The notes beneath the pieces are model-generated. The model saw only the letters and a list, made by a program, of their open reading frames with translations, did no database searches and was not told the origin of the DNA. A DNA stretch of 53,242 bases from a virus: IMG/VR virus record IMGVR_UViG_3300035682_000049, positions 1-53,242 of that record; one strand, given 5' to 3'. Positions 10,267 through 31,303 of the stretch are shown piece by piece (the first letter of the stretch is position 1; every line of letters begins with the position of its first letter). Position numbers and translations under genes: made by a program.

Positions 10267-11388
10267 CTAAGCATGAGATTTAACCCACTGTTGTAATGCT
10301 TGTTCGGGGTCAGGGCTTTGTAAAAGTGTTAATACTAGATCATGGACTAAAGGTTTCTCTGATTTGCTTATGCATGCGTCCACGCATTGCATCATGCCTA
10401 TGCGATCTCCAGAGACAACTTGAACATCTTGTTCTTCGGACTCAAATTGTTTATTTTCTTTTTGCTTGAAAAACAAATGAGCTTTTGATTCAAAGTGTTG
10501 TTTGAATCTACCTACCAACTCGATGTCATTAGAGGTGTGCAACAAATGCAGCAAAGGCATTGCTATTTCTGCCGGTATTGCATTGTCTTCAGCATAGGCT
10601 GCAGCCTTAGTCAGTTCTGCTTCTGCCATTAGTTTCAACACTTCCCAAGAGCCTTTTGCTTTATCTACAGTTAAGCGAATACATCTACGAGAGTACAAAG
10701 GCAGAGCTTCTATTATAAGCTTCTCTGTCGATTTGTATTTTTTATCGTAATTCTTAATCAAAAATACTTTCTTGTTTTCTGGTTCTGCAATATTACGCAT
10801 GTGCGTGCTACCAGGACTCAGCACAGTCAAATCCCCATGGTGATGAATCAAATTCATGTGGTAATCACCGGTGATTAGATACTTCACATTCGGAGGAATG
10901 TCATTGAAACACCCTTGTGGTTTAGCCATGTCTCCCATAAAGTCTCGCCACACTTGATGGCAAACAAGTATAGAAGACTCCTTTGCTAAATCACTTTTAA
11001 GAAATTGTTTTAATTTCTCTTCATTGTTCTGGTAATCGCATCCGGCAATTTGCCAGCCATCAAAAGTTCTGTTGTGTTCATGCAGCCAAACGGCCTTAGT
11101 GGCTGCTTGTAACCAAGGGCTTTCTTGATACTCATGCTGCCCTTGGTTATAGTAGACTCCAATACCTGTATCCGTTAACTTACGAACACCGGCTAAAAGT
11201 TTATGGATGGGTTCCGAGACATTGACTTGCTTGTCAAGGATGTCCCCTGCAAGAATGACTGCCTCGACTCCATGATCGAGGGCTAGAGTTACAATCTGGT
11301 CCCACGCATAATAACTATCTCCCTCAATAGGGCGATGAGTCCAGACTCGATTACTGAGATGAAGATCACTTGTTACTAAGATATTCAT
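10267..11388 (-). CDS. SbcD/Mre11-like (T4 gp47-type) nuclease subunit
   Basis: A 373-residue calcineurin-like phosphoesterase. The metal-binding motifs are in order: DLHLSN (D8, H10), ILAGDILD (about 46-53), NQGQHE (about 77-82), VCHQVW, and GDYHMN. It forms the nuclease half of the SbcCD-type complex with the downstream gene. The start was set at the ATG 11386-11388 because AAGGAG lies 6 bp upstream and the protein then begins with the family-typical MNILVTSDLH; an upstream in-frame extension to 11469 would cross the start of the divergent plus-strand gene. Confidence 0.92.
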   Translation of the reverse strand: MNILVTSDLHLSNRVWTHRPIEGDSYYAWDQIVTLALDHGVEAVILAGDILDKQVNVSEPIHKLLAGVRKLTDTGIGVYYNQGQHEYQESPWLQAATKAVWLHEHNRTFDGWQIAGCDYQNNEEKLKQFLKSDLAKESSILVCHQVWRDFMGDMAKPQGCFNDIPPNVKYLITGDYHMNLIHHHGDLTVLSPGSTHMRNIAEPENKKVFLIKNYDKKYKSTEKLIIEALPLYSRRCIRLTVDKAKGSWEVLKLMAEAELTKAAAYAEDNAIPAEIAMPLLHLLHTSNDIELVGRFKQHFESKAHLFFKQKENKQFESEEQDVQVVSGDRIGMMQCVDACISKSEKPLVHDLVLTLLQSPDPEQALQQWVKSHA

Positions 11389-11400
11389 GAGATACTCCTT

Positions 11401-11835
11401 ATGGTTAAAAATGTACAAATAGTTGCTATGCCCATTTGTGAGCTGTGTGATCGTCTTACCATCGCACAACTAAAACTGCAACGATTGCCGTCGGATGAAC
11501 TAGACAAAGGTTTACTGCGAAAACAAATCGCATACTATGAAACTGGGATTGATTATACCGATCCTAAAATCTGTGACTTGATAGCAGCTTTGCTTGATAT
11601 CAATGGACAAATGTGGGATGCCGAACACGACATACGCAAAGGATTAGATGAAATACTAGGGCTCTCCGAAATAGGAAGACGAGCTGTTAAAATCCGGAAT
11701 TTAAACTGCATTAGAATTGCCATCAAAAATAAGATTACTATGCTGGCCGGACAACCTGAGTTTAGCGATTGCAAAATGAATCATGTTAGTCAACGTTCTA
11801 ACAACTCAGATACAACTGAATCGCCATCGTTGTAG
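11401..11835 (+). CDS. Unknown plus-strand protein with ELCDRLTIAQLK motif
   Basis: A 144-residue protein read opposite to its neighbours. Residues 13-24 (ELCDRLTIAQLK) resemble a motif that I have seen in small phage proteins of unknown function, often near glycosyltransferases; that recollection is not a proven family assignment. The sequence is charged and helical with a degenerate C-terminus. No good SD precedes either the ATG at 11401 or the internal ATG at 11428. It starts only 12 bp from the divergent SbcD gene, and its last 46 bp overlap the end of the convergent gene 11790-12113. No competing minus-strand gene covers 11401-11789, which supports it being real. Confidence 0.68.
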   Translation: MVKNVQIVAMPICELCDRLTIAQLKLQRLPSDELDKGLLRKQIAYYETGIDYTDPKICDLIAALLDINGQMWDAEHDIRKGLDEILGLSEIGRRAVKIRNLNCIRIAIKNKITMLAGQPEFSDCKMNHVSQRSNNSDTTESPSL

Positions 11836-18191: not shown

Positions 18192-18476
18192 TCATTCTCC
18201 GTGGTACTGAAACAAAACAGCGTTACAATGACAATGCACCGCACCGATGGTCATTCCAGTGTCATGACAGTGATGCAAGTGTACAGGCCATCTAAAGAAG
18301 CCTAAAGGAAATAATTCGATGTCTATTTGTTTTTCCATTACTTTGCGAGCAGCAGCTTTATCAAGTGGCTCTTCGCAATAACTGCATTTTCCTTTTTGCT
18401 TGCTGATATACTCTTCACGCACTAATTTACGCTCTTGCCACGTAAGTTCTGCGTAGTCAACTGGGAGCTTCATCAT
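18192..18476 (-). CDS. HNH-type endonuclease (recombination endonuclease VII-like)
   Basis: A 94-residue protein with CSYCEEPLD (zinc CxxC) at about 31-39 and the conserved tail VHLHHCHDTGMTIGAVHCHC, then NAVLFQYHGE. This matches the small phage HNH family related to T4 endonuclease VII: His-His metal-binding core, Asn and the second Cys pair. It may cut branched DNA, resolving junctions before packaging, or nick host DNA. The SD AAGGAG suits either of two adjacent ATG codons. Confidence 0.82.
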   Translation of the reverse strand: MMKLPVDYAELTWQERKLVREEYISKQKGKCSYCEEPLDKAAARKVMEKQIDIELFPLGFFRWPVHLHHCHDTGMTIGAVHCHCNAVLFQYHGE

Positions 18477-18487
18477 TATTCTCCTTG

Positions 18488-18769
18488 TTAGAGTTGTGAG
18501 TCAGCTACTTCGCTGCCTCCTAAGCTTCTTAGTTTGTCTTTCCAAACTCTGCCGTTGTATGACATATACCCTACAAGTTTGTTGTTTAGAAAGAGGGGGC
18601 AATCTCCCCAATTACCCCCGCCTAGACCTTCAAGCTCTTGCCATTCTTGGACCTTTTCCCTTAGTTCTTTAATGGCATCGGCTTGCAGCTCTGTGTTTGC
18701 AATTTCTTCTTCTGGGTTTTGACCGTGGTCAATATTCCCATAAGCCGTAGCTTTAAGCTTCAACCGCAT
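18488..18769 (-). CDS. Unknown protein
   Basis: A 93-residue protein. The C-terminal part GGGNWGDCPLFLNNKLVGYM and SYNGRVW is a pattern that I have seen in small phage proteins of unknown function. The N-terminal half has a charged helix (ADAIKELREKVQEWQELE). SD AAAGGA. It overlaps the upstream gene by 17 bp. Confidence 0.78.
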   Translation of the reverse strand: MRLKLKATAYGNIDHGQNPEEEIANTELQADAIKELREKVQEWQELEGLGGGNWGDCPLFLNNKLVGYMSYNGRVWKDKLRSLGGSEVADSQL

Positions 18770-19061
18770 TTTCAGTCCTTTCTTTAATTTGTTTAAAGAT
18801 GTTCATATCGCAATCCAAGAATACTCCTTTGCAATTGTGTCCAGTGATAATGATGCACCTCATGTGCGGGGCTACGGAGTTACCCGCTGCATGCTCATGA
18901 ATCATGCTGAAGCTAACTGGGAAGATAAAATCTTCTGGAAGTTCTGCTAGCAGCTCTGGGCTAAGTATTCGGTTGTACCCTCTACTGATTGCCAACAAGT
19001 TGGCTTTTAGTAGTTCGGGTTTAGTAAAGAAAGGTATGTGACTGTACGACTTAGTTTCCAT
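18753..19061 (-). CDS. Unknown protein directly after the Trp-rich array
   Basis: A 102-residue protein. The ATG 19059-19061 was chosen because AAGGAG lies 6 bp upstream; a longer frame to 19139 would run into array unit 17. No motif is recognised; it has FIFPVSFSMIHEHAAGN and a CIIITGHNCKGVFLDCD stretch with three Cys. It is 13 bp after the array, so it is probably on the same mRNA. Confidence 0.78.
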   Translation of the reverse strand: METKSYSHIPFFTKPELLKANLLAISRGYNRILSPELLAELPEDFIFPVSFSMIHEHAAGNSVAPHMRCIIITGHNCKGVFLDCDMNIFKQIKERTENAVEA

Positions 19062-19074
19062 TAGAATCTCCTTG

Positions 19075-19263
19075 TTAAAATTGTTGTGACCAATTTTCAG
19101 TTCCAGGTCTACCGATAGACCATAAATCTGAATACGCATTGTTTACAAATCTGGATTTTGACATTGCATTGAGATTACTCAACGACCAAATCCTATTTCT
19201 ATTCCAAGCTCTAGCAGGGAGCTTAGCATCCCACCCACTTACCATATTTAGTCTTCTTATCAT
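19075..19263 (-). CDS. Trp-rich array unit 17 (last)
   Basis: 62 residues, MIRRLNMVSG start, five Trp at 11, 20, 26, 48 and 58. The start overlaps the stop of unit 16 (ATGA), with the SD in TGGAGG of that unit's last Trp codon. It ends at TAA rather than at a further ATGA junction, closing the array 13 bp before an ordinary gene. Confidence 0.75.
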   Translation of the reverse strand: MIRRLNMVSGWDAKLPARAWNRNRIWSLSNLNAMSKSRFVNNAYSDLWSIGRPGTENWSQQF

Positions 19264-19445
19264 CTGCTACGCCTCCAAACTTGAGACTGTTGCAGCATTC
19301 TACTCCAACTAAAATTCCACATACATCTATTAACCCAACTCTGCTGCTTCATTGTTGATTTAAACCAGCTTTTACTGTTTGGGCTTGTAAGTCTTTGTCC
19401 GGTCCAGTTTTGAGAAAGTGCTTGTGTTTTAATTGTCATTCTCAT
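19260..19445 (-). CDS. Trp-rich array unit 16
   Basis: 61 residues, start MRMTIK instead of MIRK, six Trp at 14, 27, 37, 43, 47 and 57, with a basic ending (WRRSR). The junction with unit 15 is an ATGA overlap, but no good SD lies at the usual distance, so it probably depends on coupling. Confidence 0.72.
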   Translation of the reverse strand: MRMTIKTQALSQNWTGQRLTSPNSKSWFKSTMKQQSWVNRCMWNFSWSRMLQQSQVWRRSR

Positions 19446-19642
19446 TTTAACCAATTAAGTCCTTTCCAATAAGTAGTCCAACAATTAGACCAACATTCTG
19501 ATCTAGTTAGATGTCCTATAGCTACAAAACCTTTCCAACTTACGGACCAAGCATGAGCATTTTGAGAAGAATAACTCCAAGTTATAGCTTTTTTAAAAGA
19601 GCTAGATTGATCCGTTGGAAATGTATTGACTCTTCTTATCAT
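19442..19642 (-). CDS. Trp-rich array unit 15
   Basis: 66 residues, MIRRVN start, seven Trp at 22, 32, 36, 51, 55, 59 and 64, including clusters WSVSW and WSNCWTTYW. The start overlaps the stop of unit 14. The SD is GGGGGG at a long distance of about 10 bp, one of the weak junctions. Confidence 0.72.
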   Translation of the reverse strand: MIRRVNTFPTDQSSSFKKAITWSYSSQNAHAWSVSWKGFVAIGHLTRSECWSNCWTTYWKGLNWLK

Positions 19643-19791
19643 TGGTAGCTTGCCCCCCGAGAAATAGTCCAACTTTTAGATCCCGATCTAAAGTTAGTCC
19701 AGCCCCAAGACCAGCCATTCCTAGGGGTCTTAGAAAGACAACTAGACTTAGTCCAATGTAAAGAGAAACCATTTATATTTTTTCTTATCAT
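19639..19791 (-). CDS. Trp-rich array unit 14 (shortest)
   Basis: 50 residues, MIRKNIN start, five Trp at 13, 27, 29, 31 and 41, all at even spacing (WSWGW core). The start shares one base with the stop of unit 13 (TAATG), behind a triple AGG run. It is the shortest member and easy to miss. Confidence 0.72.
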   Translation of the reverse strand: MIRKNINGFSLHWTKSSCLSKTPRNGWSWGWTNFRSGSKSWTISRGASYQ

Positions 19792-20006
19792 TACCTCCTC
19801 CTTCTAGGTGACGGCCAGAGTGCAACCCCATAGTCAGACCATAGGTGACGATGCGCCCAGACTTTAGAGAACGCAGGACCAGAACCCCAGCCTCCAAAGA
19901 ATGGAACACCAGGCCCTTTGGCAAGTGTTCCACCCCATGAAGACCAGACATAACTATTATCCCAAGATCCGGTCCTAGCCTGTATTCTGGCTATTTTTCT
20001 TATCAT
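19791..20006 (-). CDS. Trp-rich array unit 13
   Basis: 71 residues, the longest unit. MIRKIAR start, seven Trp at 15, 21, 24, 40, 50, 56 and 64, with a Gly/Pro-rich middle (LAKGPGVPFFGGWGSGP), ending in four Arg encoded by AGA-AGG-AGG-AGG, which also forms the SD of unit 14. ATGA junction with unit 12. Confidence 0.75.
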   Translation of the reverse strand: MIRKIARIQARTGSWDNSYVWSSWGGTLAKGPGVPFFGGWGSGPAFSKVWAHRHLWSDYGVALWPSPRRRR

Positions 20007-20215
20007 CGCTTAGTCCTCCAAAGCAAAGAGCGATGAGCGTGACAACCATTTAAAAACCAATGAGACCAACTGTACTCAAGTTGGTGTGAGTCCGTGGCAA
20101 TCTCAGACCACATCGATTCACGGCTCCAAGACTCAGAATTAGTCCTTTCGTTTTTAGGTCCGAGTTTATTTGTTACCCAAGACTTAGATCCGGGCCATGT
20201 TGCTTTCCATATCAT
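20003..20215 (-). CDS. Trp-rich array unit 12
   Basis: 70 residues, start MIWKATW, eight Trp at 3, 7, 13, 30, 36, 50, 53 and 66. The last Trp codon with the next codon gives TGGAGG, the SD for unit 13. ATGA overlap on both sides. Confidence 0.75.
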   Translation of the reverse strand: MIWKATWPGSKSWVTNKLGPKNERTNSESWSRESMWSEIATDSHQLEYSWSHWFLNGCHAHRSLLWRTKR

Positions 20216-20391
20216 CTTCGGGTTCTCCAGCTATTTGAACGAAACCAAAGATATTCAGAAAAGATGCGGCACAAACCCCAACAGCCAGCAAAACTGTTTA
20301 AAGATGTTGACCAATGACTCAAATTAGTCCTAGACCTTTGTAATGCTTCAGTCCAGTTATTAGAGTTAGCAGTTATTCTATGCATTTTCAT
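20212..20391 (-). CDS. Trp-rich array unit 11
   Basis: 59 residues, start MKMHRIT (a second ATG two codons in is possible), five Trp at 13, 27, 38, 49 and 55, ending NSWRTRR. It is a diverged N-terminus compared with the MIRK units, though the C-terminal pattern is kept. Confidence 0.72.
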   Translation of the reverse strand: MKMHRITANSNNWTEALQRSRTNLSHWSTSLNSFAGCWGLCRIFSEYLWFRSNSWRTRR

Positions 20392-20573
20392 TGAGCTGTT
20401 CTCCAAGAGTAGGAACGGTTGTACCATATGCCACTACCTACATCGCTGTGGGTGCGCTGGCGAAACCAGTTACCTGATTTTAAATCGTAATGATCCCATT
20501 GGTTGAACCATGAACATTTCTGTTCTCTGTTCCAAACAACAGATATGATTACTACATTTGCTTTTCTTATCAT
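20388..20573 (-). CDS. Trp-rich array unit 10
   Basis: 61 residues, MIRKANV start followed by a hydrophobic VVIISVV stretch, six Trp at 14, 22, 26, 36, 50 and 57, ending SWRTAQ. The SD in AAGGGG of unit 9 lies about 8 bp before the ATG. Confidence 0.75.
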   Translation of the reverse strand: MIRKANVVIISVVWNREQKCSWFNQWDHYDLKSGNWFRQRTHSDVGSGIWYNRSYSWRTAQ

Positions 20574-20746
20574 CGAGAGCCCCTTCTCCAATCTCTAGAC
20601 TTTTCCCAAGTATTAGTCCAAGACCCAGAATCATAATTAGACTTAAACCAAGACCAAGACTCACGCCATTCTTCTGCCCAATCCCAAGATCTAGCACAAC
20701 CCCGAGAAAAAGTCGTAGCAGTAGTACATTTTGTTTTTCTTATCAT
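20570..20746 (-). CDS. Trp-rich array unit 9
   Basis: 58 residues, MIRKTKC start, eight Trp at 21, 23, 27, 31, 33, 43, 47 and 53, all at even spacing. The core reads SWDWAEEWRESWSW. The end WRRGSR carries the SD for unit 10. Confidence 0.75.
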   Translation of the reverse strand: MIRKTKCTTATTFSRGCARSWDWAEEWRESWSWFKSNYDSGSWTNTWEKSRDWRRGSR

Positions 20747-20910
20747 TTGTCGGTGCTCCAAGAATAAGACCAAGGCTCAGGCCAAGACCCAGATCCAGCC
20801 CAACGCATAGACTCTGACCAAGATTCAGACCAAGGCCCAGACCAAGACCAAGACCTAGTCCAAGACACAGACCAAGACCAAGAACTAGCCTCATTTGTTT
20901 TTCTTATCAT
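20743..20910 (-). CDS. Trp-rich array unit 8 (most repetitive)
   Basis: 55 residues with eleven Trp at 11, 13, 17, 21, 23, 27, 31, 37, 43, 47 and 51, every spacing even. About 20% Trp and over 30% Ser. AAGGAG is 5 bp before the ATG. The DNA is a near-repeat of short blocks reading TGGTCT or TGGTCC, so slippage could expand or shrink it. A different frame (Leu-Gly repeats) is also open here but has no fitting start. Confidence 0.75.
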   Translation of the reverse strand: MIRKTNEASSWSWSVSWTRSWSWSGPWSESWSESMRWAGSGSWPEPWSYSWSTDK

Positions 20911-21089
20911 ATATCTCCTTTCCAAGAGGAAGACTCTATAAAGTCCTCAGTCCATGCTCCACCAATACGCCATTCTTCTGACCAAAGATTAGACCATGTA
21001 GGCCAAGGTCTATACTTAGCCAAACACCAAGACATGTTCGTGTCCAAAGACCAAGAGAAAGATTGGCCAAAAGCTTTTCTTATTATCAT
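20907..21089 (-). CDS. Trp-rich array unit 7
   Basis: 60 residues, MIIRKAF start (one codon inserted against MIRK), eight Trp at 13, 21, 29, 32, 36, 40, 46 and 56. The ending SSWKGDI is encoded so that AAAGGAG forms the SD of unit 8. ATGA junctions on both sides. Confidence 0.75.
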   Translation of the reverse strand: MIIRKAFGQSFSWSLDTNMSWCLAKYRPWPTWSNLWSEEWRIGGAWTEDFIESSSWKGDI

Positions 21090-21262
21090 CGGAAAGAACT
21101 CCAAGAATTAGATCTAATCTTTGGAAAGACCCACAGGTAAGACCAAGATTTTCCAAAAGGCGTAGCGGTAGATCTGTGCCAATGTCGTGTAAAGCAAGTT
21201 CCCCAAAAAGACAAGTCTGACCAATCTCTTGATCTGGGAATTACTAATGTTTTTCTTATCAT
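21086..21262 (-). CDS. Trp-rich array unit 6
   Basis: 58 residues, MIRKTLV start, six Trp at 14, 20, 28, 40, 44 and 54, all at even spacing, ending SNSWSSFR. The start lies one base after the TAA of unit 5, the only junction without overlap, with GGAG of unit 5's last Trp codon as SD. Confidence 0.74.
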   Translation of the reverse strand: MIRKTLVIPRSRDWSDLSFWGTCFTRHWHRSTATPFGKSWSYLWVFPKIRSNSWSSFR

Positions 21263-21263
21263 G

Positions 21264-21446
21264 TTATCTCCATGCTATTCGCAGAATAGATAGGTTCCAG
21301 TTTCGTGCTCCCCATGTAATGCTGTAATGCCAGCGTCCGGGCCAGCCTAGAGATCCGGAACCGGACAACAAAGACGCAGACCAGTACACAGACCCAGACC
21401 AGTTACGAGATAGTTTTTCAGGAGCTCTCGCTGTTCGTTTGATCAT
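21264..21446 (-). CDS. Trp-rich array unit 5
   Basis: 60 residues, start MIKRTAR, seven Trp at 16, 22, 35, 39, 45, 50 and 59. It ends AWR followed by TAA; the TGGAGATAAC context supplies the SD for unit 6. Confidence 0.75.
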   Translation of the reverse strand: MIKRTARAPEKLSRNWSGSVYWSASLLSGSGSLGWPGRWHYSITWGARNWNLSILRIAWR

Positions 21447-21643
21447 ATGTGGTGACTCCAAGATCTAGGAATGGAACCGACTACGAAGTTAGACCGAAGT
21501 CTGTTTTGAGGCCAGCACCCAGTGTAATTTTGACTAAAATGCCAGTTCCAACTCCAAGTCTTGGGAAAAGGTTTAAGACGAGACCAAGAATAACCTTGAG
21601 ACCAAGCTTCAGTTCGAGAGTATAGCAATGTTTTTCTTATCAT
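21443..21643 (-). CDS. Trp-rich array unit 4
   Basis: 66 residues, MIRKTLL start, seven Trp at 14, 20, 30, 32, 34, 44 and 62, all at even spacing, with the core TWSWNW. It ends SWSHHI; TGGAGT gives the SD of unit 5. Confidence 0.75.
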   Translation of the reverse strand: MIRKTLLYSRTEAWSQGYSWSRLKPFPKTWSWNWHFSQNYTGCWPQNRLRSNFVVGSIPRSWSHHI

Positions 21644-21849
21644 GCGTTTGTACTCCACGACTCGGACATAGGTATGTTTATATCCATCGCCACCCAAGCC
21701 CAACAATGAGACTCAAAATCAGTCCAAGACTCTGAATGTGCCTCAAAATTTGAATTTATACTATATCCCCAATTATCTAACCAAGATGATGATATATGTG
21801 CACTAACGTTCCAAGAGTTTGAACTCCTCCACGTTATTTTTCTTATCAT
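21640..21849 (-). CDS. Trp-rich array unit 3
   Basis: 69 residues, MIRKITW start, eight Trp at 7, 13, 23, 27, 42, 50, 52 and 65, with several acidic residues in the C-terminal half (FEAHSESWTDFESH), unlike the basic units. ATGA overlap on both sides. Confidence 0.75.
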   Translation of the reverse strand: MIRKITWRSSNSWNVSAHISSSWLDNWGYSINSNFEAHSESWTDFESHCWAWVAMDINIPMSESWSTNA

Positions 21850-22055
21850 AAGTTATCCCTCCAATGCCAAGACTCGTGTCTATTTTTAACCCAAGCACCA
21901 GATCTACCCTGAGACTCGGGCCAAGAATAAGATTTAGCATACTGATGAGACCAAGCCCCACCCCAGCCACCTTGAGCTACAGTTGGCTTCCACTCAGATG
22001 TATCCCAATTCCCAGACCAAGACCCAGAACTTGCAAAATCAACACTTCTTATCAT
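21846..22055 (-). CDS. Trp-rich array unit 2
   Basis: 69 residues, MIRSVDF start, nine Trp at 13, 17, 22, 31, 35, 45, 55, 63 and 65. A Gly-rich middle (AQGGWGGAW). It ends HWRDNL, where TGGAGG is the SD of unit 3. Confidence 0.75.
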   Translation of the reverse strand: MIRSVDFASSGSWSGNWDTSEWKPTVAQGGWGGAWSHQYAKSYSWPESQGRSGAWVKNRHESWHWRDNL

Positions 22056-22234
22056 CGGTATTCCCTCCATGCTGTGGTGGAAATAAATTTAGTGTGAGAC
22101 CAACTACTTGACCAAGGTCTACCTAATCTATCAGAGGAAAAAACCATACCTTCTGTTCTGTAAGTGCCGCAAGTCCAACTATTGGTCCAGAGCAAAGCTC
22201 TGGACCATGGAGGAATAGATTTTATTATTCTCAT
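22052..22234 (-). CDS. Trp-rich array unit 1 (first)
   Basis: 60 residues, start MRIIKSI at the ATG 22232-22234 with GGGGAG upstream, six Trp at 10, 16, 20, 41, 45 and 56. It follows the 22249-22566 gene by 14 bp and has the only stand-alone SD of the array, so translation of the whole series may begin here. It ends AWREYR. Confidence 0.74.
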   Translation of the reverse strand: MRIIKSIPPWSRALLWTNSWTCGTYRTEGMVFSSDRLGRPWSSSWSHTKFISTTAWREYR

Positions 22235-22248
22235 ATGCACTCCCCTTG

Positions 22249-22566
22249 TTATGCATCCAAGGGAGCGAAGCACCAGCGTGGCTGATATATGATTTCCACT
22301 GCACCTAGGGAAATCACAACAGAGGAGCCGATTGGATCCTCGGTGTTAGGTTGTTCTTGACTAGAAGCACCCGAGGTCTCCACTGCCCTAGCTTGGGCCA
22401 ACACCAAGCAGTCATCAGCTACATGGCTGAGGATGCCACGGTAGTTGTAGCGGGCACAAAGCACCGCAACGGGTTGACCCAAGAATTGCTGAGCAATACT
22501 GGCCATGTTGCCAGCAAGGGTGCCATCGATATTTACCAAAGTTACTTTGTTCTTTACTTTTGCCAT
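22249..22566 (-). CDS. Conserved phage protein, unknown function, heads the Trp-array operon
   Basis: A 105-residue protein with LVNIDGTLAGNMASIAQQF, then GQPVAVLCARYNYRGIL, SSVVISLGAVEIIYQP near the C-terminus. The pattern recurs in small conserved phage proteins that I recall, but it has no known function. SD AAGGA. A terminator at 22602-22629 separates it from upstream genes, so it and the array probably form one transcript; I see no convincing promoter in the 35 bp between. Confidence 0.8.
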   Translation of the reverse strand: MAKVKNKVTLVNIDGTLAGNMASIAQQFLGQPVAVLCARYNYRGILSHVADDCLVLAQARAVETSGASSQEQPNTEDPIGSSVVISLGAVEIIYQPRWCFAPLDA

Positions 22567-22601: not shown

Positions 22602-22629
22602 AAAAAGGGAGCAGACATTCTGCTCCCTT
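22602..22629 (-). terminator. Intrinsic terminator upstream of the array operon
   Basis: A perfect 11-bp inverted repeat, AAGGGAGCAGA and TCTGCTCCCTT, with loop CAT, followed on the minus strand by TTTTT. It ends the operon of 22664-22990 and isolates the array transcript. Confidence 0.85.
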
Positions 22630-26307: not shown

Positions 26308-27885
26308 TTATTTAAATTTGTTGATTCGTTCGCCAATCCAACGCATCACGGGGACAGCCATGCTATTCCCTAATGCTTTGTAACGAACTCCATCTGGGCA
26401 TTGATCCGCTGGCTTTTTATTCCAAGGGATCTTAGTGTAATCGTCAGGGAATCCCTGCAATCTTTCACACTCGATGGGGGTTAATCTTCGCACTGCCATA
26501 GCTTGCATGACAGTGGGGCCGGTACCTGTTCCGTCTGATCCTCTATTTGTCATGGGTGCTGCAACATCGCCAGTGATCGCACCATTAAACATATCTGTGC
26601 CGACTATTTTTGTAGTTGTTACAGACACAAGGTCGGTAGCGTCTTTGTAGTCTCTAGCCTTCATAGAGGAAGCTGTCTGGTCGTCTGCGTATTCACCAAA
26701 GGCTTGCATTCTGAATGCGTGCATTACAGTCGGACCGCTGGCATTTACGCTGCTGCCTGATGTACCCATCGTGGCAGCAACATCTCCAGTGATCGAGCCA
26801 TTGTAGCAGTCAGTGCCAAGGACAGGCTGCATCACAGTGGGACCGGAATGGGTCGCACTGCTACCTGTACTTGAGGTTACGGTTGCGGAGACATCTCCAG
26901 TTACTGCACCATTGTAGCAGTCAGTACCAATGGCTACCGCAGTCTGGTTGTCTCCCATGTTGCGTCGTAGTGTACCCGCTACTTCCTCCGTGAATCGACT
27001 AGGATTGCCTTCTCGTGCTGCAATGCCTGGTTCGAAAGCATAGGCTACTGCTAGCCCACGACCTTCGGTAAGGTCATCATTCCCAATCCCTTTGTAGTCT
27101 CTAGCGCGCATAGCCCCTACGATGTCTTTACCATTCGGGCTTTGCCATTTGATTTCCGTTTTGCTAACGACTAGATGCTCTCCCCTAGAGGAAGGCACCC
27201 CGCCATTACCGCCACTTCTGAGGCAAGCTGCAATGGAATAATTCCCATTGGCTATTTGGTCTGCGTCAACGCCGCGTTCTCCAAAGCCGCCCGTAAGAGT
27301 GGCGGCAACTCTTTTCCCCGCTTCTCTGCTCGGCGCAGGATGCCGCTGCAGGCTTTCGGACTCAAATAGAACTTTTGCGGCACGCCCTGCGTCTCCAAGA
27401 CATCCGATAACGAACAAACGTCTCCTTCTCTGGGCCACTCCGAACCACTGAGCGTCCATGATCCTAAATGCGAACCCATACCCCAGGTTTCCCAACGCCC
27501 CGAGGAAGGTACCAAAATCCCTTCCTCCGTTGGAGGACAGAACACCGGGGACGTTTTCCCAGACCAACCACCTAGGTTGGTAACGTTGAGCGATTTTAAG
27601 ATAGGTAAGCATAAGGTTACCTCGGGGATCTTCGAGACCTTTTCTAAGGCCGGCGATGGAGAAGCTTTGGCAGGGCGTGCCACCGACGAGGAGATCGATT
27701 TTTTCATAGGGTTTCCATTCCATGTACTTAGTCATATCCCCAAGGTTAGGGACTTTGGGGTAATGATGGTTGAGGACTGCAGAAGGGAATTTATCAATTT
27801 CCGAGAAAGCGACAGGCTTCCAGTTAAGATGGTGCCAAGCTGCGGTGGCTGCTTCTATCCCCGAACACACTGATAAATACTTCAT
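26308..27885 (-). CDS. C5-cytosine DNA methyltransferase
   Basis: A 525-residue methyltransferase. Motif I SVCSGIEAATAAW (about 5-17), motif IV GGTPCQSFSIAG with the catalytic Cys (about 76-87), motif VI WENVPG, motif VIII QRRRRLFVIG, and motifs IX-X near the C-terminus (RRLTPIECERLQGFPDDYT, KALGNSMAVPVMRWI). Between motifs VIII and IX a target-recognition region of about 250 residues holds imperfect repeats (GTDCYNGA-TGDV, then TGPTVMQ). It probably methylates the phage genome to escape restriction. No companion restriction gene is seen. The start MKYLSVCSG was preferred (AAAAGGG 5 bp upstream) over an ATG 24 bp farther up. Confidence 0.9.
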   Translation of the reverse strand: MKYLSVCSGIEAATAAWHHLNWKPVAFSEIDKFPSAVLNHHYPKVPNLGDMTKYMEWKPYEKIDLLVGGTPCQSFSIAGLRKGLEDPRGNLMLTYLKIAQRYQPRWLVWENVPGVLSSNGGRDFGTFLGALGNLGYGFAFRIMDAQWFGVAQRRRRLFVIGCLGDAGRAAKVLFESESLQRHPAPSREAGKRVAATLTGGFGERGVDADQIANGNYSIAACLRSGGNGGVPSSRGEHLVVSKTEIKWQSPNGKDIVGAMRARDYKGIGNDDLTEGRGLAVAYAFEPGIAAREGNPSRFTEEVAGTLRRNMGDNQTAVAIGTDCYNGAVTGDVSATVTSSTGSSATHSGPTVMQPVLGTDCYNGSITGDVAATMGTSGSSVNASGPTVMHAFRMQAFGEYADDQTASSMKARDYKDATDLVSVTTTKIVGTDMFNGAITGDVAAPMTNRGSDGTGTGPTVMQAMAVRRLTPIECERLQGFPDDYTKIPWNKKPADQCPDGVRYKALGNSMAVPVMRWIGERINKFK

Positions 27886-27886
27886 G

Positions 27887-28096
27887 CTAACCCTTTTTAG
27901 TGCCTTCATTTAGTTGTAACAGACCCAAGTAAACAGCTTTTGCCATTTCCTCTTTGGCTGCATAGTAAAGGGGGGCACCGCCTGTTTTCACTAGGTAACC
28001 ATTTCCGATACAGCTTACCCTAAGCTGTATACTTATGTCGTTACCATCTTTACGGATAACAAACTCCGGCACAATCGGTGCTTCAGTAGTTGTCAT
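27887..28096 (-). CDS. Unknown small protein
   Basis: A 69-residue protein; VPEFVIRKDGNDISIQLRVS and GAPLYYAAKEEMAKAVYLGL suggest a short sheet followed by a helix. No family is recognised. SD AAAGGAG. It ends one base before the methyltransferase start. Confidence 0.77.
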   Translation of the reverse strand: MTTTEAPIVPEFVIRKDGNDISIQLRVSCIGNGYLVKTGGAPLYYAAKEEMAKAVYLGLLQLNEGTKKG

Positions 28097-29347: not shown

Positions 29348-31303
29348 ATGAGTGAAGAAATAAACATGTTACGCAAAACCTCTAGCCAAGTATTGGCAGA
29401 GGAACAAAGCTCGGGCTCCGAAATTGACTTTGGCCCAATGCTGGAATCGTCGCTGTTGGCTGATTATGTAAAGAACTCTTTAGATACTCAGCAAATCCAA
29501 CAGTTACGAATGGCTCAGCATGTAATGGCCAAGACGGGTTATCTGACATTAAAACCATTGCTTCCCCTTTTGTTATCTATTAGGGGAAAGCCATATCATT
29601 TACATGACCATTTTCCATTTGCTCCTTTCTTTAGAACAAGAATGCCTCGTACCACACTATTGAAAACAGGAAGACAGGTGTCAAAGTCCACATCGCTTGC
29701 AGCGCAAGGAGTGTTGTTTGCTAACTGTATTCCCTATTTTTCGACACTTTATATCACACCATTGTTTGAAATGGTGCGAAGGTTTTCACAAAATTATGTA
29801 GCTCCTTTTATTGAAAGCAGCCCAGTGGGTCGTCTGTTTTCGGGAGAGACTACGATTAACAATGTGCTACAGCGTTCATTCAAGAATAAGTCTCAGATGC
29901 TCTTCTCCTTTGCCTACACCGACGCAGAAAGAGTGCGTGGGGTAAGTGCAGATAAGAACTGTATTGACGAGATCCAGTACATGGATATTTCGTTTCTACC
30001 TATTATTCATGAAACGCTATCTGCGTCTAGGGACTGGGGTATTATCCAGTACGCTGGAACTCCTAAGACTCTAGACAATACCATCGAGAAGCTTTGGAAT
30101 GATTCCTCCATGGCTGAATGGGTTATCCGCTGCCCCCACCCAGGCTGCGGACATTGGAACATTCCGGCATTAGAGTACGACCTAATTAAGATGATTGGGC
30201 CAGTACACTCCGGCATTTGCGAGACTGTACCCGGTGTAATTTGTGCTAAGTGTGCAAAAGCTATAAACCCTCGACCTGCAGCACAAGGTGGCACAGGACG
30301 ATGGGTTCATCGCAATGCAAGCAAGCGTTGGTCTTTTGTTGGGTATCATGTCCCTCAGCTGATTATGCCGATGCATTACTCTGATCCAGAAAAATGGCAG
30401 AAGCTTGTAGACAAGATGAATGGGAAGGGTAATGTTCCCGTCAATGTTTTCTACAACGAAGTTTGCGGGGAGTCGTGGGACAGTGGGTCTAAGTTAGTCA
30501 CTGTTACTGACATAAAACAGGCTGCCTGTCTTCCTTGGCCTTGCCTAGTAGACGAAGCCAAAAAGCACATTGATTCTTACATTTACCGCTTTGTCTCTGT
30601 AGACTGGGGCGGCGGTGGTGTAAGTCGAGGTAAAAGCAGCATGAGTCTGCAATCCTACACCGCAATTGCAGTATGCGGATTGACTCCAGATGGGCGAGTA
30701 GACATCATTTATGGGTTCCGCAGCATGACTCCGCATGAACATGTGAGAGAAGCTAGGCTTATCCTTGGCATCATGCAGACATTCCATTGCAGCCATATAG
30801 TACACGACTACACTGGAGCTGGTACTGTTCGAGAAACCTTGCTAGTACAATCTGGATTAGATCCAGCCAACATACTAGCAGTAGCTTATGTGGGACCAGC
30901 TAAGAGTGGGTTGATCAACTTTAAACCTGCTAACGAGTTTCATCCCCGCAACCATTACACTATGGATCGTAATCGAGCATTGAACTACTGCTGCCAGTTC
31001 ATCAAATCCCATGTAGTACGCTTCTTTCAATACGATCATCGAGGTTCAGAAGATATTGGGTTGCTCCATGATTTTCTAAACCTTATTGAAGACAAAGCAG
31101 AATCTGGAAGCGGAAGGGATCATTACCGAATCTTACGAGATCCAGCTGGCCCAGATGACTTTGCACAAGCGGTTACTATGGGAACTATGATGTTGTTCCA
31201 AATGCATGGTCGATGGCCAGACTTATCCGCTTATGAGAGTATGAACATCAGTGATGAAGTGCGATCTGCAATGAAAGGTCGGGCATTAGAAGACCCCGAA
31301 TAA
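29348..31303 (+). CDS. terL: Terminase large subunit
   Basis: A 651-residue packaging ATPase-nuclease. The ATPase domain has a P-loop GRQVSKST (108-115) and Walker B with the catalytic Glu in CIDEIQYMD (205-213), followed by the motif III-like AGTPKTLDN. A zinc-like Cys set (CPHPGCGHW, CAKCAKA) sits between the domains. The nuclease domain starts near 417 with SVDWGGGG (first metal Asp) and continues with VHDYTGAG, where the second Asp lies. It translocates DNA into the capsid and cuts it. No small subunit or portal gene adjoins it, which is unusual. It is on the plus strand in a minus-strand region. The SD is weak (GAAAG). Confidence 0.92.
   Translation: MSEEINMLRKTSSQVLAEEQSSGSEIDFGPMLESSLLADYVKNSLDTQQIQQLRMAQHVMAKTGYLTLKPLLPLLLSIRGKPYHLHDHFPFAPFFRTRMPRTTLLKTGRQVSKSTSLAAQGVLFANCIPYFSTLYITPLFEMVRRFSQNYVAPFIESSPVGRLFSGETTINNVLQRSFKNKSQMLFSFAYTDAERVRGVSADKNCIDEIQYMDISFLPIIHETLSASRDWGIIQYAGTPKTLDNTIEKLWNDSSMAEWVIRCPHPGCGHWNIPALEYDLIKMIGPVHSGICETVPGVICAKCAKAINPRPAAQGGTGRWVHRNASKRWSFVGYHVPQLIMPMHYSDPEKWQKLVDKMNGKGNVPVNVFYNEVCGESWDSGSKLVTVTDIKQAACLPWPCLVDEAKKHIDSYIYRFVSVDWGGGGVSRGKSSMSLQSYTAIAVCGLTPDGRVDIIYGFRSMTPHEHVREARLILGIMQTFHCSHIVHDYTGAGTVRETLLVQSGLDPANILAVAYVGPAKSGLINFKPANEFHPRNHYTMDRNRALNYCCQFIKSHVVRFFQYDHRGSEDIGLLHDFLNLIEDKAESGSGRDHYRILRDPAGPDDFAQAVTMGTMMLFQMHGRWPDLSAYESMNISDEVRSAMKGRALEDPE

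Follow-up and report, generated by a model that had tools for sequence, protein, structure and literature searches.

The 53,242-base virus record IMGVR_UViG_3300035682_000049, analysed here over its whole length and called the window, raises the question of what an unbroken run of short tryptophan-rich reading frames encodes and why a phage would keep it. The minus strand of the window is tiled from 22234 to 19075 by 17 ATG frames of 50 to 71 codons, each with 5 to 11 tryptophans (Trp), for a total of 119 Trp in 1055 codons. A first-pass annotation had listed these consecutive frames without giving a strand, and all of them are present. Its description of the junctions also holds: 14 of the 16 are four-base overlaps (ATGA), units 13 and 14 overlap by one base, units 5 and 6 are separated by one base, and the reading frame changes at all 16. 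The MIRK-like start that it ascribed to most frames is found as MI[RK], through ATGATNA-type codons, in 12 of the 17 units, the remaining five beginning MRII, MIIR, MKMH, MIWK and MRMT. A chain caller blind to Trp recovers the identical 17 units, with unit 16 given a TTG start nine bases upstream. When frames no shorter than 50 codons were chained wherever neighbours met within 10 bases, the longest chain was 17 in the real sequence and one on the opposite strand, compared with at most four in 1000 dinucleotide shuffles (at most two with ATG-only starts). Composition and chance are not the explanation of the 17-frame chain.

The array is found at the same place in seven distinct genomes, traced through the terminase and a 105-amino-acid (aa) flanking gene: the window (with identical copies), G004 (L005), G005 (L006), G006 (L007), L048, L049 and L050. 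The first arrays of these genomes hold 17, 17, 18, 8, 9, 15 and 16 units, respectively, a variation in copy number that the first-pass annotation had proposed to look for. The resulting set of 100 units, used below, excludes the flanking genes, the array of L051 (a duplicate of the G006 array) and one member with a single Trp at the frameshifted place in L050.

Coding and constraint in the units

The 100 units share an anatomy as well as an extreme composition. ATG is the start in 95; 39 units begin ATGATAAGAAAA and 14 begin ATGATAAGAAGA. Seventy-two starts lie at a gap of -4, and 58 of these 72 junctions read TGATAA, the usual start ATGATAAG overlapping the preceding stop so that the preceding unit ends in a tandem TGA-TAA. 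ATA is the second codon in 76 units, although in 13 long genes of the window only a quarter of isoleucine codons are ATA. A Shine-Dalgarno-like match of at least four bases precedes 89 starts, often within the codons of the last Trp of the preceding unit, and the C terminus lies four residues past the last Trp in 60 units. Serine, Trp and arginine account for 17.9%, 11.3% and 9.1% of residues, compared with 1.8% Trp in the 13 long genes. Among 52 representatives, 209 of the 261 Trp-Trp distances of at least three are even, and a distance of 10 is over-represented; relative to Trp, serine stands at odd distances and lysine or arginine more often at even ones, a two-residue alternation that fits a beta-strand. 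Identities of the other window units to unit 8 are 22 to 53%, so the earlier statement that units differ greatly outside their ends stands for identity; it does not stand for the Trp/Ser scaffold common to them, and a profile built from the units detects relatives in other genomes.

Repeats at several scales accompany this scaffold. In L040, from G006, the periods are 6, 12, 30 and 215 bp, the last with 2.6 copies and 84% matches; five units of the G006 array have near-identical ends. The three shorter periods are still visible in unit 8 of the window. Even Trp spacing may have been inherited from hexamer repeats, a simpler origin for the alternation than a beta-strand, and the excess at 10 residues would match the 30-bp repeat, since 30 bases encode ten residues.

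Several lines of evidence bear on whether the frames code for protein. TGG occurs 706 times in the unit frame and 38 and 180 times in the other two, and TCTTGG 224 times compared with 0 and 1. A repeat acting purely as DNA does not account for this locking, because almost every junction shifts the frame. Substitutions were then compared in 23 orthologous pairs, one per group and with the first four codons omitted, against 300 simulations of neutral change in these sequences, which matched the observed changes in number and type and admitted no stops. Orthologs were clusters at E <1e-12 and 70% coverage, so that fast-diverging units are under-represented; unit 8, which clusters by composition with SWSG-type units of G004, G005 and G006, was left out. 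The pooled ratio of nonsynonymous to synonymous change (dN/dS, omega) was 0.49, compared with a neutral mean of 0.78 (range 0.59-1.00), indicating constraint across the related phages. Nine of the 23 pairs fell below neutral at the 2.5% level and none lay above it (two had P ~0.04). Trp was retained at 151 of 159 positions, compared with a neutral mean of 71% and a maximum of 80%, and is the most conserved residue (95%, compared with 75% overall). Since Trp has one codon, poor conservation would be expected under neutrality. Even in the eight pairs of highest omega, grouped after omega was known, 49 of 55 Trp were kept (65% expected, maximum 80%). At the other extreme, units 5, 6, 7, 10 and 13 have omega values of 0.04-0.26 against G004, units 6, 7, 10 and 13 are 84-97% identical in G004 and G005, and the tight orthologs show an excess of changes at third positions.

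Intact frames are a further line. All 35 alignment gaps in orthologous units are multiples of three, which is partly forced by intact frames and counted over overlapping pairs. The first-pass annotation had reasoned that stops and frameshifts in relatives would point to a non-coding repeat; among 95 MI[RK]-type starts in nine arrays, three give frames shorter than 38 aa, by inspection one frameshifted unit, one shortened unit and one start within another unit. The apparent frameshift, at 8170-8374 of L050, is the sole such case among these starts. Coding for protein is strongly supported by these sequence patterns. The neighbouring genes that were compared are under much tighter constraint (four comparisons gave omega 0.01-0.14 and one more was saturated), suggesting that the units are a fast-evolving gene class with a well-kept Trp pattern.

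Turnover and distribution of the array

How the units change places can be followed among the closer relatives. Orthologs of 13 of the 17 window units are present in G004, with two long flanking blocks 88 and 94% identical, and of 12 of the 17 in G005; between units 7 and 9, one unit in the window is matched by four at the same place in G005. Over six arrays, 92 of 134 alignment-block ends lie within 30 nucleotides of a unit ATG, compared with 31% for random places, and the median distance to a unit start is 12 nucleotides compared with 49, in a count that takes block ends in both partners, which are not independent, and in which the shared junction itself lengthens alignments. With that non-independence, whole genes appear to have been exchanged at conserved boundaries, as in an integron-like cassette array. 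Copy number differs between close relatives, as in phage genomic accordions; near-identical tandem copies are partly apparent in G006 (the 215-bp period) and not among the 17 units of the window. These comparisons show that units come, go and are substituted for one another, with alignment breaks clustering at the junctions, and they give moderate support to turnover bounded by those junctions. HNH endonuclease matches (PF01844) are present in four of four genomes, tens of kilobases away from the array.

Units are also found away from the first array. In L048 and L050 another array lies upstream of the first, and isolated units stand among ordinary genes; at 77.5 kb of G006 a solitary frame resembling a unit (three Trp; weak match to the profile, E 0.0099) overlaps an unrelated 328-aa gene by four bases. 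Adjoining this lone frame, at 1241-2059 of L278 (~77.7 kb in G006), is a 272-aa frame made of two near-identical segment copies with YNAGNKEGYRSGSESG repeats.

All occurrences found lie in one clade. The unit profile matched 5 of 20 virus records, all five from the array-bearing clade, and none of 15 distant terminase relatives (54-79% aa identity over the best segment), many of them fragments. Pattern scans of viral and of genome contigs gave at least 95 stretches each, of which 13 of 190 matched the unit profile, all on contigs already known. A search with a G006 unit returned only the two records that hold the G006 array, and a junction DNA pattern with a fixed 8-base gap had no matches. 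No array outside this clade was met in these scans, which covered no metagenome contigs, and absence elsewhere is unproven.

The first-pass annotation knew of no family that fits, and neither the family libraries nor the PDB yielded a counterpart. The 52 representatives gave only single-member matches at E 0.021-0.089 in NCBIfam, Pfam, PHROGs and PADLOC, and a PDB profile search gave none at E up to 1. In tblastn against 50,697 phage records, run with the low-complexity filter on and so possibly with unit 8 masked, units 8, 10 and 13 had no match, and unit 7 had only 11 records at E 0.3-0.8, over part of the unit and in DNA polymerase or hypothetical genes. No description of such a family or array was found in the open-access literature searched.

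The array and its surroundings

The virus from which the window is a fragment measures at least 179 kb. A search with its large terminase (29348-31303, PHROG 675) found three records that match window 19348-41300 without a difference over 21,953 bases, the longest of them 178,753 bases in length, and relatives of 156,975 and 172,719 bases. Named phages are distant, with terminase identities below 30% among the best 20 of 88 records. Genes on the same strand include an SbcC-like protein, a metallophosphoesterase, a helicase and a cytosine methyltransferase, and the array is probably part of an early region on the replication side. A possible start of the operon lies past the terminator-like hairpin listed in Table 1; the terminator scan, by consensus match, found 9 sites where 5.4 were expected, and the promoter scan gave 8 where 13.4 were expected. 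Rfam had no family at gathering score in the window, and no tRNA was found in the window or in L040-L042.

Table 1. Units of the array and adjoining features in the window (aa, amino acids; W, tryptophan; nt, nucleotides)
Feature	Coordinates	Strand	Length and W	Remarks
Unit 1	22052..22234	-	60 aa, 6 W	begins MRIIKSIPPWSR; start 14 nt past upstream gene
Unit 2	21846..22055	-	69 aa, 9 W	
Unit 3	21640..21849	-	69 aa, 8 W	
Unit 4	21443..21643	-	66 aa, 7 W	
Unit 5	21264..21446	-	60 aa, 7 W	
Unit 6	21086..21262	-	58 aa, 6 W	preceded by 1-base gap
Unit 7	20907..21089	-	60 aa, 8 W	six related sequences from five other genomes
Unit 8	20743..20910	-	55 aa, 11 W	SWSWS type; 6/12/30-bp repeat visible
Unit 9	20570..20746	-	58 aa, 8 W	
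Unit 10	20388..20573	-	61 aa, 6 W	omega against G004 0.04, lowest among pairs tested
Unit 11	20212..20391	-	59 aa, 5 W	
Unit 12	20003..20215	-	70 aa, 8 W	
Unit 13	19791..20006	-	71 aa, 7 W	identity 92 and 94% in two relatives
Unit 14	19639..19791	-	50 aa, 5 W	overlaps unit 13 by 1 base; at the threshold applied, none of the other six arrays has an ortholog
Unit 15	19442..19642	-	66 aa, 7 W	no Shine-Dalgarno-like match
Unit 16	19260..19445	-	61 aa, 6 W	length from ATG 19445 (chain caller: TTG 19454); at the threshold applied, none of the other six arrays has an ortholog
Unit 17	19075..19263	-	62 aa, 5 W	final unit; 3' end overlaps longer start of downstream frame
105-aa gene	22249..22566	-	105 aa	directly upstream of array in 7 of 7 distinct genomes; DUF6897 match below cut-off
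Terminator-like hairpin	22605..22629	-		11 pairs and T-rich tail, upstream of 105-aa gene; consensus match only
Frame downstream of array	18753..19139	-	128 aa	102 aa from ATG with Shine-Dalgarno at 19061; whole in G004

Several features around the array deserve separate mention. The longer form of the downstream gene is stopped in G005 (G005:C1:142445-142821, in L039) and the shorter form, beginning METKS, stays open there for 97 aa, so the true start is more likely the shorter one. Some 600 bp downstream of the array, window 18192-18476 encodes a PHROG 14729 protein with a weak endonuclease VII match and is the sole segment between 18000 and 24000 that resembles named phages in its DNA; the presence of a nuclease so close to an unstable array may matter. 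Downstream of the arrays of L048 (~11597-11806) and L050 (~10795-11236) lies a low-complexity, repeat-like stretch rich in arginine, glycine and alanine codons, with frames such as RRGEAGVAGPDGAARSRARRG and, in L050, several frames open. The cytosine methyltransferase (window 26308-27909) aligns to phage relatives in two pieces, as if a long stretch separated conserved N- and C-terminal parts.

What the array may do

We propose, with confidence that is about evenly divided, that the locus is an array of gene cassettes whose small protein products are co-translated, have a fixed Trp scaffold and are perhaps effectors directed at the host. The anatomy of the junctions suggests that ribosomes reinitiate from unit to unit, so that the proteins would be co-produced from one mRNA and translation would yield a mixture of small, mostly basic proteins. 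Selection keeps most Trp in the pairs compared and, in some of them, the entire sequence. The shared junction of 25-30 bp (Shine-Dalgarno and ATGATAAGAAAA) may serve as recombination homology, which we propose is why swaps rarely break the reading frame, and new units would be born by slippage of GGTCTN hexamers and by tandem duplication. The least certain step is that the units would be early host-directed effectors, for takeover or counter-defence, with a common Trp/Ser surface and variable residues between, the array being kept as a changing repertoire. Host-directed small proteins are, by analogy, what we infer to be the best fit among the phage biology found. We propose a repertoire rather than dose because most copies have diverged, a preference that is evenly poised at best. 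The multi-gene family of the first-pass annotation survives in its small proteins, single strand and overlapping starts; the diversification that it suggested does not appear as positive selection in the 23 pairs. More tentatively, and at less than even odds, the array may be a protein repertoire made without a reverse transcriptase, in which a fixed Trp lattice carries free residues, slippage and duplication supply births, and the translation junction doubles as recombination site, the whole forming a shuffling library of binding proteins.

Several findings weigh against the cassette-array proposal. The other 42 of the 134 block ends lie away from unit starts, the ends are not independent and the shared junction itself lengthens alignments, and no RecA or ERF family match was found in four genomes. 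Eleven of the 100 starts have no Shine-Dalgarno-like match. Codon usage departs from that of the long window genes (AGA and AGG together 0.68 compared with 0.33; ATA 0.55 compared with 0.25), which may reflect low expression or repeat origin. The much stronger constraint on neighbouring genes counts on the same side, as do the 14 of 23 pairs indistinguishable from neutral in amino-acid change. Moreover, the units have no link to host or defence proteins, and PADLOC finds none.

Two rivals stand foremost: a protein that assembles by virtue of its composition, and an expansion that is in part neutral. In the former, Trp stickers and serine or glycine spacers would assemble a condensate, fibre or coat, copy number would be dose and individual sequences would barely matter, consistent with the biased composition and with the alternation of Trp and serine at even and odd distances. 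AlphaFold gave no fold (pLDDT, its local confidence score, 49.5 and pTM, its global one, 0.32 with a 7-row alignment; 55.2 and 0.13 with 30 rows), as this rival would also have it, and the failure may mean either that the units are disordered or that the alignments are too shallow. However, several units are held position by position (units 5, 6, 7, 10 and 13 above), which bulk composition would not need, and the even spacing is perhaps a legacy of the hexamer repeats; we regard such an assembly as unlikely. Selfish or near-neutral expansion, in which slippage and duplication yield tolerated units of which few are functional, would account for the 14 neutral-like pairs and the very fast turnover. 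It is hard to reconcile with the Trp kept even in the eight high-omega pairs (a post hoc group), with the rarity of broken units and with the presence of the array in all seven distinct genomes where the 105-aa flanking gene was found, and we consider it quite unlikely.

Trp-rich antimicrobial peptides resemble the units in their Trp-rich, cationic character, and a mean net charge of +5 with high Trp and arginine would suit membrane-active peptides for lysis, superinfection control or competitor killing. Nevertheless, 12 of the 100 units have a net charge of 0 or below, window units are as long as 50-71 aa, inspection by eye revealed neither a signal peptide nor a transmembrane stretch, and the neighbours of known family are replication and modification genes, with no lysis gene recognised, making this a very unlikely account. 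The least probable account, which we hold to be hardly credible and strongly disfavour, places the function in the DNA or RNA, as a repeat or a ladder of ribosome-binding sites, with the proteins as by-products. The conserved junction motif, the hexamer repeats and the use of TCT for serine (0.60 in the units compared with 0.26 in long genes) fit such a function, but TGG keeps to the unit frame, neither Trp conservation nor omega agrees with the neutral simulation, and tight orthologs show the third-position excess.

How does such an array compare with known systems? Diversity-generating retroelements are a phage-carried means of making variant proteins; both vary proteins, there in one variable region and here by whole genes. 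A retroelement of this kind is unsupported here, the reverse transcriptase family PF00078 matching 0 of 8 virus records, some of them fragments, in a search whose control matched in 3 of 14. Plasmodium has Trp-rich multigene antigen families with Trp at conserved positions; the likeness, by description, is to a multigene family with conserved Trp positions, in a eukaryotic parasite and without an operon. Poxvirus gene accordions amplify a gene in response to host defence, and the array would resemble them if its amplification answers host defence, although theirs are repeated copies of one gene in a eukaryotic virus. Closer to hand is the phage genomic accordion: T4 amplifies tifA, the gene for an inhibitor of a defence toxin and so a counter-defence case (PMC9391042), and SegB drives amplification of anti-defence loci (PMC13096335). 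The likeness lies in recombination-driven change of copy number, with near-identical neighbouring units in G006. The difference is that one segment is reported to be amplified there (PMC9391042, PMC13096335), whereas the units of the present array are mostly diverged, have a residue scaffold in common and overlap from start to stop.

Gene arrays that expand and contract are already known as an evolutionary mode; what is new, as far as our searches reach, is the family of proteins itself, its architecture of 17 coupled units and the exchange of diverged units within the bounds of the junctions. Provided that the units are made, they would be a clade-specific family of extreme composition (11.3% Trp) in which the overlap of start and stop is perhaps also the crossover point. 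The array would then offer a testable case of a phage that keeps and renews a library of small proteins, with ~100 natural variants available for asking what the Trp lattice does.

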